This document shows positions 46,882-49,292 of a stretch of DNA of 64,000 nucleotides, piece by piece. The notes under the pieces are model-generated. The model had not been told where the DNA came from and did not search any database. It worked only from the letters and a program-made list of their open reading frames with translations. Every line of letters begins with the position of its first letter. Position 1 is the stretch's first letter. The DNA lies in contig NZ_CP080519.1 of the NCBI RefSeq assembly GCF_019468465.1, forward strand, positions 6,193,001-6,257,000, read 5' to 3'. The DNA is from Amycolatopsis sp. DSM 110486 (GTDB lineage: Bacteria > Actinomycetota > Actinomycetes > Mycobacteriales > Pseudonocardiaceae). The translations under genes were made by a program, and so were the position numbers.

Positions 46882-47973
46882 TCAGCGACGCGCTCGCACC
46901 GCACCCGCCATTGTGTCCAGCAGATCCGCCGTCGTGTCCCAATCCAGGCACGCGTCGGTGATCGACTGCCCGTACGTGAGCTCCGAAGCTTGCCCCAGCA
47001 CCAGCTTCTGGGCGCCCGCCGTCAGGAAGCTCTCCATCATCAGCCCGACGATCCCGCGCTCACCCGCAGCAATCCGCGAGGCCAGCTCCAGCACGACCTC
47101 GCGGGAGCGGACGTGGTCCTTGTTGCTGTTGCCGTGGCTCGCGTCGATGATCACGCGCTCCGGCAGGCCGGACTTGGCGAGCCGGCCGAGCGTCTCGGTC
47201 ACCGAGGCGGCGTCGTAGTTCGGGCCCTGCGAGCTGCCGCGCAGGATCACGTGGCAGTCGGGGTTGCCGGAGGTGGTCAGCAGCGCCGCGAGGCCGTCGA
47301 CGTTGATGCCCGGGAACACGTGCGACGCGGCGGCCGCGCGCGTGGCGTCCACCGCCACCTGGATGTCGCCCTCCACCGAGTTCTTGATGCCCACCGGCAT
47401 CGACAGCGCGCTGCACATCTGGCGGTGCACCTGGCTCGCGGCCGTGCGCGCGCCGATCGAGCCCCACGTGACGATGTCGGCGATGAACTGCGGCGTGATC
47501 GGGTCCAGGAACTCACAGCCCACCGGCAGGCCGAGCGCCGACACGTCGAGCAGCAGCTTGCGGGCCAGGCGCAGGCCCTTGTTCACGGCGAAGGTGCCGT
47601 CGAGGTCGGGGTCGTTGATCAGGCCCTTCCAGCCCAGCGTGGTGCGCGGCTTCTCGAAGTACACGCGCATCACGATGTGCAGGTCGCCGCGCAGCTCGTC
47701 GGCCTTGGCGGCCAGCTTGCGGGCGTACTCGATCGCGGCTTCGGGGTCGTGGACCGAGCACGGGCCCACGACCACGGCGAGGCGGTCGTCGCGGCCGTCG
47801 AGGATGTCGACGGTCTCGGTGCGCCCGGCGTGCACGACCTTCGCCACGGCGGCGTCCACGGGATGGTCTTCGCGCAGTAAGGCGGGGGAGATCAGCGGGC
47901 TGATCGACGTGGTGCGCTGGTTGTCGAGGGTGCTCGCGTCGGCGGGCCCGGCGGTCAGCTGCGGGGTGGTCAC
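46882..47973 (-). CDS. 3-Deoxy-7-phosphoheptulonate synthase, class I (AroF/G/H type)
   Basis: A 363-aa class I DAHP synthase joining phosphoenolpyruvate and erythrose 4-phosphate at the start of the shikimate pathway. It has VVVGPCSVHDPEAA, MRVYFEKPRTTLGWKG, GCEFLDPITPQ, GARTAASQVHRQ, GIKNSVEGD, ASHGNSNKDH and MMESFL. The M. tuberculosis enzyme at the matching locus (AroG, Rv2178c) is class II, so this is a different family. The GTG at 47973 is chosen because AGGAAGGA lies 11 nt upstream, inside the longer frame to 48078. An upstream Tyr-Phe-Trp-Phe peptide suggests attenuation by aromatic amino acids. Confidence 0.9.
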   Translation of the reverse strand: MTTPQLTAGPADASTLDNQRTTSISPLISPALLREDHPVDAAVAKVVHAGRTETVDILDGRDDRLAVVVGPCSVHDPEAAIEYARKLAAKADELRGDLHIVMRVYFEKPRTTLGWKGLINDPDLDGTFAVNKGLRLARKLLLDVSALGLPVGCEFLDPITPQFIADIVTWGSIGARTAASQVHRQMCSALSMPVGIKNSVEGDIQVAVDATRAAAASHVFPGINVDGLAALLTTSGNPDCHVILRGSSQGPNYDAASVTETLGRLAKSGLPERVIIDASHGNSNKDHVRSREVVLELASRIAAGERGIVGLMMESFLTAGAQKLVLGQASELTYGQSITDACLDWDTTADLLDTMAGAVRARR

Positions 47974-48017
47974 GGCGGGTGGTTCCTTCCTGGTGGACAC
48001 CGACCCGCGGGAACTCG

Positions 48018-48043
48018 CCGAGCCGGTTTCGAATCCGGCTCGG
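48018..48043 (-). promoter_or_regulatory. Candidate attenuator hairpin in DAHP synthase leader
   Basis: On the minus strand CCGAGCCGG and CCGGCTCGG form a perfect 9-bp stem with an 8-nt loop, between the leader-peptide stop and the DAHP synthase start. Its first arm lies within 48035-48050, which can pair instead with 48078-48092 inside the leader-peptide coding region, so two exclusive structures exist. There is no T-tract. Confidence 0.55.
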
Positions 48044-48053
48044 GGGTGGGAAG

Positions 48054-48119
48054 TCAGCGCAGGTTCACGCGGCCGCACCCACCCGGGGCCGGCTTCGTAA
48101 ACCAGAAATAGCGCTGCAC
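48054..48119 (-). CDS. Candidate aromatic leader peptide upstream of DAHP synthase
   Basis: A 21-codon frame starting GTG CAG and reading QRYFWFTKPAPGG..., with four consecutive aromatic codons Tyr-Phe-Trp-Phe. It lies about 80 nt upstream of the DAHP synthase start in the same direction. TAGCTT ends 7 nt before the GTG, which suits a leaderless transcript. An ATG at 48149 would give a 31-aa version. Ribosome stalling on the aromatic codons could sense charged tRNA. Evidence is sequence pattern only. Confidence 0.6.
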   Translation of the reverse strand: MQRYFWFTKPAPGGCGRVNLR

Positions 48120-48126
48120 GCCGATC

Positions 48127-48132
48127 AAGCTA
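48127..48132 (-). promoter_or_regulatory. -10 element TAGCTT for leader peptide/DAHP synthase
   Basis: TAGCTT on the minus strand is followed by 7 nt and the GTG of the leader peptide at 48119. No convincing -35 box. Confidence 0.4.
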
Positions 48133-48266
48133 GCACACGCGGCCACCATGTGGGCACGAGGACCGATTGGCCAGGTGGTACGCCCTGCACCGATCCAGAC
48201 GATTGCCGCTACTCTGGCGTCGAAATGTGACTGCGATCTCCAACGTGACGAAGACGGAGGAAAGAG

Positions 48267-49292
48267 ATGCGTGTCGGTGTGCTGACGGGTGGCGGTGACT
48301 GCCCGGGCCTGAACGCGGTGATCCGCGCGGTGGTCCGCAAGGGCATCGAGGTGCACGGCTGGGAGTTCACCGGCTTCCGCAACGGGTGGCAGGGGCCGCT
48401 CACGGGCGAGAGCAAGCCGCTCGGCCTGCGCGACGTCGAGGACATCCTCACGCGCGGCGGCACGATCCTGCGCTCGTCGCGGACCAACCCGTACAAGGTC
48501 GAGGGCGGCGTCGAGAAGATCAAGGCCGTGCTCGCCGAGCAGGAGATCGACGCGCTGATCGCGATCGGCGGCGAGGACACCCTCGGCGTCGCGAAGCGCC
48601 TGACCGACGACGGCATCGGCGTCGTCGGCGTGCCCAAGACGATCGACAACGACCTGGGCGCCACCGACTACACGTTCGGCTTCGACACCGCCGTCTCCAT
48701 CGCGACCGAGGCGATCGACCGGCTGCACACCACGGCCGAGTCGCACCACCGCGCGCTGGTCGTGGAGGTCATGGGCCGCCACGCCGGCTGGATCGCCCTG
48801 CACTCCGGCCTGGCCGGCGGCGCGAGCGTGATCCTGGTGCCGGAGCGCCACTTCTCCGTCGACCAGGTCGTGGAGTGGGTCGAGCGCCGCTTCGAGAACG
48901 AATACGCGCCGATCATCGTCGTCGCCGAGGGCGCGCTGCCCGAGGGCGGCGAGGAGAAGCTGGTCGCGGGCGAGAAGGACGCCTTCGGGCACGTCCGCCT
49001 CGGCGGCATCGGCACCTGGCTGGCCGACGAGATCGCGCACCGAACCGGCAAGGAGTCGCGCGCGGTCGTGCTCGGCCACGTGCAGCGCGGCGGCACCCCG
49101 ACCGCCTACGACCGCGTGCTCGCCACCCGCTTCGGCCTGCACGCCGTGGACGCGGTGGCCGACGGCGACTTCGGTGTAATGGTGGCGCTGAAGGGCACCG
49201 ACATCGTGCGCGTGAAGCTGTCGGAGGCGACCGCCGAGCTGAAGACGGTGCCGCTGGAGCGTTACGAAGAGGCCGAAGTCTTCTTCGGCTGA
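48267..49292 (+). CDS. pfkA: 6-Phosphofructokinase, probably pyrophosphate-dependent
   Basis: A 341-aa PFK. The glycine loop is GGGDCPGLNA and the catalytic loop PKTIDND. At E. coli numbering it has Asp104 (GGEDT) and Lys124 (VPKTIDND). ATP-dependent enzymes have Gly104, and Asp104 with Lys124 marks pyrophosphate-dependent enzymes such as that of Amycolatopsis methanolica. The reaction would be reversible fructose-6-phosphate/fructose-1,6-bisphosphate conversion with PPi. GGAGGAAAGAG precedes the ATG. It is divergent from the DAHP synthase unit, with 147 bp between the two start codons (leader peptide included). Confidence 0.88.
   Translation: MRVGVLTGGGDCPGLNAVIRAVVRKGIEVHGWEFTGFRNGWQGPLTGESKPLGLRDVEDILTRGGTILRSSRTNPYKVEGGVEKIKAVLAEQEIDALIAIGGEDTLGVAKRLTDDGIGVVGVPKTIDNDLGATDYTFGFDTAVSIATEAIDRLHTTAESHHRALVVEVMGRHAGWIALHSGLAGGASVILVPERHFSVDQVVEWVERRFENEYAPIIVVAEGALPEGGEEKLVAGEKDAFGHVRLGGIGTWLADEIAHRTGKESRAVVLGHVQRGGTPTAYDRVLATRFGLHAVDAVADGDFGVMVALKGTDIVRVKLSEATAELKTVPLERYEEAEVFFG

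Follow-up and report, generated by a model that had tools for sequence, protein, structure and literature searches.

A leader peptide with tyrosine, phenylalanine and tryptophan codons and four competing RNA helices before a class I DAHP synthase gene of Amycolatopsis: a probable translational attenuator

The rate at which carbon enters the pathways to the aromatic amino acids and to many antibiotics is set by DAHP synthase; antibiotic producers are found in the genus Amycolatopsis. How the synthesis of such an enzyme might be adjusted to the supply of its end products is the question raised by a locus of Amycolatopsis sp. DSM 110486, located in a stretch of 64,000 nucleotides (the window, to which all coordinates refer) of a genome of about 11 Mb. 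The minus strand carries at 46882..47973 a gene with a GTG start encoding a protein of 363 amino acids, which matches TIGR00034 aroFGH with 474.4 bits and PRK12755 with 477 bits and is thus a class I DAHP synthase (3-deoxy-7-phosphoheptulonate synthase), as the preliminary description of the locus had assumed. A type II DAHP synthase is encoded elsewhere in the same genome (PF01474, 640 bits), and the divergent neighbour of the class I gene encodes a phosphofructokinase (48267-49292). Between the phosphofructokinase gene and the leader described below, positions 48159-48198 hold a block CTGGATCGGTGCAGG..ACCACCTG..AATCGGT, which by eye recurs in many loci of the same genus and is possibly a shared promoter or regulator site.

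Upstream of the synthase gene, a minus-strand frame of 21 codons (VQRYFWFTKPAPGGCGRVNLR, 48054..48119) runs from a GTG (48119-48117) to a TGA (48056-48054), and its codons TAT TTC TGG TTT (48099..48110) specify Tyr4, Phe5, Trp6 and Phe7. A short reading frame rich in end-product codons is therefore placed before a biosynthetic gene, with an untranslated gap of 80 nt between the leader stop and the synthase start. A predicted -10 promoter hexamer, TAGCTT (48127..48132, minus strand), is located 7 nt 5′ of the leader GTG. This frame, its hexamer and two competing pairings downstream had been reported before, and all were confirmed in the sequence. Segment 2 (CCGGCCCCGGGTGGG, 48092-48078) can pair with CCCACCCCCGAGCCGG (48050-48035) of segment 3 (48035..48053), which lies directly past the leader stop; the part CCGAGCCGG (48043-48035) of segment 3 can instead form a strong, GC-rich and perfect 9-bp hairpin with CCGGCTCGG (48026-48018). 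The count of two pairings had to be extended to four, as segments 5 and 6 had escaped description. Segment 4 (ACCGGCTCGG, 48018..48027) pairs either with segment 3 (9 bp) or with segment 5 (9 bp including two G-U pairs). Segment 5 (GCGGGTCGGTG, 47998..48008), which is similar to the motif of segment 3, has two possible partners, segment 4 and segment 6 (ACCACCCGC, 47975..47983). The latter closes a hairpin that encloses the synthase Shine-Dalgarno sequence (AGGAAGGA, 47984..47991), part of which lies in the loop and part in the stem. The competing pairings, all formed by minus-strand RNA, are thus 2:3, 3:4, 4:5 and 5:6.

To what extent this arrangement is shared was judged from related genomes. 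A protein search with the synthase gave a match in 40 of 60 genomes, including all 36 of the genus (its own among them), and the leader was present in all 30 Amycolatopsis loci compared, the window included: 29 encode Y-F-W-F and one (L016) Y-Y-W-F, with the sensor starting 125-176 nt before the synthase match start in the 29 loci measured. A strict DNA pattern, CGNTAYTWYTGGTTY..CCGGCCCNGGGTGGG, matched once each in 104 of 390 genomes of the family, representing 9 of 46 genera, and the same pattern read backwards gave no match in these 390 genomes. Fifty loci, taken from 49 of the 104 matching genomes, were inspected, and in every one a match to class I DAHP synthase begins 126-205 nt after the first sensor codon. 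Judged by its presence in 30 of 30 loci of the genus and in 104 of 390 family genomes, against none for the backward pattern, the leader is far above chance. A covariance model built from 33 leaders matched 231 of the 390 family genomes and 28 of the 46 genera at E 0.05 (genomes of the model included), and 217 of 390 genomes at E 1e-4. In a sample of 397 genomes from the order it matched 124, including 42 of the own family. Weak matches of this model are partly chance, for example L164-L166, which lack a synthase. Other families with the leader look like Rhodococcus/Nocardia and Micromonospora when their peptides are compared with those of named loci. A search of Rfam, including T-box, returned no family in the leader region of the window up to E 5; for six loci searched up to E 1 none was found in the leader, and one weak match lay upstream of the L147 leader.

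The comparison of leaders was based on 186 loci, from which 124 distinct leaders were kept and 45 dropped as duplicates. Left out were the three loci without a synthase (L164-L166), three without a clear start (L119, L155, L185) and eleven which failed the leader pattern (L137, L138, L140, L144, L146, L156, L159, L161, L163, L184, L186). Several of these eleven show a related leader, such as QYWF or SFWF. Two of them, L161 and L163 of genus g57, possess a synthase and hairpin-like remnants without an aromatic leader ORF; there, the leader has apparently decayed. The leaders were selected by an aromatic pattern, and their start codons partly by an upstream TAnnnT.

All 124 leaders have TAnnnT 5-8 nt before the chosen start, a count which is partly built in because the choice of start favoured this motif. 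An AGGA- or GGAGG-like Shine-Dalgarno sequence was found before none of the 124 leaders, and 119 of the 124 synthase genes have a Shine-Dalgarno sequence, their starts having been chosen for it. The peptides of L022, L069 and L136 are extended N-terminally, and here too the hexamer lies 5-8 nt before the selected start. As the spacing of the hexamer is kept and the leader has no Shine-Dalgarno sequence, these observations fit a predicted leaderless transcript beginning at the leader GTG. Of the 124 leaders, 122 end with TGA and 2 with TAG. In an alignment of the 33 leaders, insertions between sensor and stop measure 3 or 9 nt, and the region past the stop varies freely. That the frame is a chance ORF over a conserved promoter and a structured 5′ UTR, serving no regulation, seems scarcely credible in view of these insertion lengths, the family-wide conservation of the sensor and the covariation described below.

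The sensor residues read YFWF in 94 of the 124 leaders, the others being YYWF, YRWF, WYRF, RYWF, YPWF and singletons. Two features of the leader had previously been called unusual, and both judgements have to be revised. The combination of all three aromatic amino acids in one peptide is the rule for this leader and no peculiarity of the present genome, as F, W and Y occur together within five codons in 123 of 124 leaders, a number partly built in by the preselection for an aromatic pattern. Leaderless starts have precedents, since several leader peptides of S. lividans (PMC8079986) and the ilvB leader of C. diphtheriae (PMC5784534) are transcribed leaderless. Among the 78 leaders of 21 codons, which are those picked for an aromatic-x-Trp-Phe sensor, Tyr4 is found in all, and the fourth sensor codon is TTT in 78 of 78 and never TTC. 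The distance from the first sensor codon to the CCGG of segment 2 is 18 nt in 121 of 124 leaders. Codon 10 is CCG in 78 of 78 and codon 11 GCC in 77 of 78 of the 21-codon leaders, and the near-invariance of their wobble bases suggests a constraint on the RNA at these two codons.

The corresponding residues, Pro10 (78/78) and Ala11 (77/78), could also be taken as the mark of an arrest peptide, in which nascent RYFWF..PA.GG would stall the ribosome in response to a free metabolite. TnaC is an arrest peptide of this kind. For the present leader we regard such a mechanism as most improbable, because RNA pairing accounts better for the near-invariant wobbles of codons 10 and 11, residues 12, 13 and 15-20 vary, the sensor of the 21-codon leaders stands just 3 residues from the N-terminus, and the N-terminal length varies in L022, L069 and L136.

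The helices themselves were examined by segment swapping, in which RNAduplex scores of partner segments taken from the same leader were compared with those of partners taken from different leaders (122 leaders, L147 and L154 left out). Segments 2 and 3 reached -24.9 kcal/mol within leaders versus -22.9 kcal/mol when swapped (z -11.2), and the corresponding z values were -5.8 for 3:4, -8.6 for 4:5 and -10.3 for 5:6. The 3:4 value is the least clean of the four because its two segment windows share a few bases in leaders with a short loop. Non-neighbouring segments (4:6, 3:5, 2:5, 3:6), which served as the sole control for the relatedness of the leaders, showed no excess among the same 122 (z -0.2 to +1.0). 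With one leader per genus, from 27 genera sorted by hand, z was -7.5 for 2:3, -2.4 for 3:4, -4.4 for 4:5 and -3.7 for 5:6 (controls -0.1 to +1.0); outside the own genus it was -9.8, -3.0, -6.7 and -8.3, respectively (controls +0.4 to +1.4). Among leaders of the own genus alone, 3:4 (z -3.1), 4:5 (-3.4) and 5:6 (-3.2) were still significant and 2:3 showed no excess (z -0.6); in this subset the control 2:5 was unexpectedly significant (z -4.2) and 3:5 weakly so (z -2.1).

Compensatory changes are found, for example, in 2:3 (GGGTGG:CCACCC in L001, GGATGG:CCATCC in L145, TTGCGG:CCGCAA in L160, GAGGAG:CTCTTC in L177), in 4:5 (CAAGCCG:CGGCTTG in L066, ACAGACCG:CGGTCTGT in L022, ACGAGCCG:CGGCTCGT in L071) and in 5:6 (GGCTT:AAGCC in L069, GCGGGT:ACCCGC in L001). 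In the tail of 4:5, where A-U and G-C pairs are both common, the register of pairing was scored in 69 distinct short-loop leaders. Anchored on the CGG nearest the Shine-Dalgarno sequence, a choice that made no use of pairing and, like the restriction to short-loop leaders, followed a first result with an anchor on the CGG right after segment 4 (101 of 249 cells paired, shuffle mean 99), the tail paired in register in 189 of 276 cells; slid out of register it paired in 65-100 (of 207-276 cells), and 5000 shuffles gave at most 175. The flanks of the phosphofructokinase Shine-Dalgarno sequence in 86 of the same loci showed no such pairing (z +1.9), with a duplex of -8.7 compared with -18.4 kcal/mol for 5:6, and one of three coding controls reached z -3.0. 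Comparison among relatives thus points to selection for complementarity in all four helices. It also supports the earlier proposal that stalling at aromatic codons would be the input, by the conserved sensor, its fixed 18-nt spacing from segment 2 and the compensatory changes in 2:3 and 4:5; the search for conservation in relatives that had been suggested with that proposal did not refute it.

Taken as a regulatory element, the locus is probably a ribosome-mediated attenuator of translation with tyrosine, phenylalanine and tryptophan as its inputs. The transcript would begin at the leader GTG, and the first ribosome would trail RNA polymerase. If Tyr-, Phe- or Trp-tRNA were short, this ribosome would stall at codons 4-6, just before segment 2, whereupon 2 would capture 3 and segment 4, being free, would capture 5; with 4:5 formed, segment 6 would stay single and the synthase Shine-Dalgarno sequence open (on). 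On read-through, the ribosome would cover segment 2 and then the start of segment 3, which would let 3:4 fold, so that 5 would pair with 6 and the Shine-Dalgarno sequence would be hidden (off). We infer this relay because selection for 4:5 requires segment 4 to be sometimes free of 3, because the conserved 2:3 would free it, and because 5:6 encloses the Shine-Dalgarno sequence. We incline to the view that a relay of four helices carries the stall signal over about 110 nt to the Shine-Dalgarno sequence, is conserved over much of the family and in related families, answers at the level of translation to scarcity of any of the three amino acids, and corresponds to no Rfam match.

Translational rather than transcriptional attenuation is suggested by the lack of a T-tract after 3:4 and by the two further helices, 4:5 and 5:6, downstream of it. 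In the window, the T-tract that marks a trp-type terminator is absent after 3:4, and across relatives only 1 of 111 short-loop leaders has a TTTT in the 18 nt that follow 3:4. As an intrinsic terminator in this clade, 3:4 was rejected on this count. Classical transcription attenuation, with 3:4 as a terminator lacking a T-tract, 2:3 as the antiterminator and 4:5 and 5:6 merely modulating translation, is in our estimation unlikely. It would agree with the strong GC hairpin formed by 3:4, with the description of C. glutamicum aroF/AroR as transcription attenuation (PMC11802643), and with eleven long-loop leaders, none of them of the own genus, which have extra sequence between 3 and 4 and in seven cases TTTT, TTTCG or TTTG; clear hairpins with a short T-run are seen in L160, L177 and in L147, the last being outside these eleven. 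Besides the rarity of TTTT, however, it leaves unexplained the covariation of 4:5 and 5:6 and the position of 5:6 around the Shine-Dalgarno sequence. In L147, L152, L160, L162 and L177-L180, all outside the own genus, an inserted, terminator-like hairpin is nested inside 3:4; most of these hairpins have a short T-run, as in GGGCAGGG..CCCTGCCC with TTTCGCATGC after it. The T-runs in 7 of the 11 long-loop leaders suggest that lineages with such an inserted hairpin may add or use transcription termination.

A third possibility is Rho-dependent attenuation, in which translation of the leader or its end would set the access of Rho and the helices would be secondary. The 80 nt left untranslated after the leader stop would suit this mechanism, and Rho was proposed, on a weak prediction, for mycobacterial cys leaders (PMC1262725). 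Given the structure of the leader RNA (fold z -2.2) and the conservation of its helices, we consider it very improbable for this locus.

Folding calculations with and without a ribosome were used to examine the single steps of the proposed translational attenuator. Without a ribosome, the minimum-energy fold of the whole window leader RNA, for which the above z of -2.2 was obtained, contains 2:3 and 5:6 together, with segment 4 partly on the sensor codons, and the centroid contains the lower part of 2:3, 3:4 and 5:6. A shorter RNA, which begins with segment 3 and ends at the synthase start, adopts 3:4 together with the 5:6 hairpin around the Shine-Dalgarno sequence (z -1.9), the latter thus being sequestered in one of the alternative folds. 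For the stalled state, the ribosome footprint was taken to end 12 nt downstream of the first A-site base. In nascent RNA ending after segment 3 and with the A site on sensor codon 1, 2 or 3, 108 of 111 leaders formed upper 2:3 and 108 formed lower 2:3; with the fourth sensor codon in the A site, upper 2:3 is masked (0 of 111). A ribosome ten codons beyond the start of the sensor left 2:3 in 0 of 111 leaders, a ribosome at the leader stop left upper and lower 2:3 in 7 and 4, and in the RNA free of ribosomes they formed in 45 and 47 of 111. Folding hence supports the first step, from stall to 2:3, for the first three sensor codons. The position of the ribosome places mutually exclusive helices, with the qualification that 3:4 and lower 2:3 coexist at equilibrium: once segment 4 is transcribed, equilibrium prefers 3:4 beside the lower part of 2:3.

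The covariation of 4:5 speaks for the last step, the opening of the Shine-Dalgarno sequence; equilibrium folding does not support it. In nascent RNA from segment 4 to the Shine-Dalgarno sequence, segment 4 pairs downstream by at least 5 bp in 111 of 111 leaders. At equilibrium, the opening of the region between Shine-Dalgarno sequence and start codon costs on average 9.5 kcal/mol with segment 4 available versus 9.9 kcal/mol without it (122 leaders), and 9.8-10.4 kcal/mol with a mismatched, foreign segment 4. Availability of segment 4 made opening easier by >0.2 in 58 and harder in 53 of the 122 leaders, and for the leader of the window 5:6 is the favoured helix. Considered by themselves, the Shine-Dalgarno bases are unpaired to about one half in both situations (0.50 and 0.49). 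A scan of ribosome positions along the leader gave a mean gain of 0.9 kcal/mol with the right sign in 85 of 124 leaders. As equilibrium does not support this step, a folding order has to be assumed, and the on state, if it exists, would be kinetic.

Control of this type has relatives among known systems. In erm-type translation attenuators, a stalled leader ribosome frees the Shine-Dalgarno sequence via competing helices, as would be the case here; their cue is a drug, whereas the DAHP synthase leader would respond to charged tRNA for three amino acids and would relay the signal through two further helices, 4:5 and 5:6. The leaderless poly-cysteine attenuators of mycobacteria, reportedly described by Canestrari in 2020, share the leaderless short ORF and the sensing of an amino acid and differ in amino acid and gene. 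Of the known cases, the one nearest to the present leader is AroR, the leader peptide of aroF in C. glutamicum, reportedly described by Neshat et al. in 2014. AroR contains Phe-Tyr-Phe and precedes aroF (PMC4046766, PMC11802643), and it shares with the present leader the consecutive aromatic codons before a DAHP synthase gene and an expression raised by the stalled ribosome. As described there, its sensor has no Trp, unlike the Tyr-Phe-Trp-Phe found here, and its mode of action is given as transcription attenuation (PMC11802643).

The trp-type and actinobacterial leaders described in two papers (PMC1262725, PMC8079986) likewise combine sensor codons with competing segments 2, 3 and 4, and differ from the present case, in which 3:4 has no T-tract. 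Seliverstov 2005 notes the absence of conserved RNA structures upstream of phenylalanine/tyrosine operons in Actinobacteria (PMC1262725), and the words DAHP, heptulosonate and phenylalanine are absent from the text of the S. lividans paper (PMC8079986). Cysteine genes of M. tuberculosis are placed under translation attenuation in a 2026 paper (PMC13236596), and a 2005 TyrA paper mentions predicted attenuators before Vibrio aroA-tyrA operons. Searches of the open-licence literature in PMC returned no report of the leader described here.

The leader does not accompany every class I gene. In the genus, 19 genomes have 2-4 class I copies, yet one model match each under strict filters, and ten extra copies from five same-genus genomes (L268-L277) all lack the segment-2 motif, which suggests that some class I copies escape control by the leader. 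Three of these ten have some other short aromatic ORF upstream. A wider survey covered those 80 loci of named genomes in the collection that matched best, 33 of them classed by title as actinobacterial and 47 as others. Among these best 80, a short ORF with 3 or more aromatics in 5 residues precedes the gene in 26 of the 33 actinobacterial loci (shuffled mean 0.95, maximum 3) and only 1 of 33 reaches 5 aromatics in 7; at least 5 in 7 are found in 18 of the 47 others (shuffled mean 0.25). Aromatic-rich upstream ORFs of this kind (L211, L216, L219-L221, L236, L240, L245, L246, L248, L249, L256, L258, L260-L264) belong to Proteobacteria and to some further phyla, one case being SFYFWYYGFPMPLAEEG in Xanthomonas. 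To place a leader peptide rich in aromatic residues before a class I DAHP synthase gene may be a general habit of bacteria.

If the proposed mechanism is true, the leader would be a compact three-input sensor and would provide an actinobacterial example of a biosynthetic gene controlled by translational attenuation. It would also constitute a defined and removable brake on the shikimate pathway.
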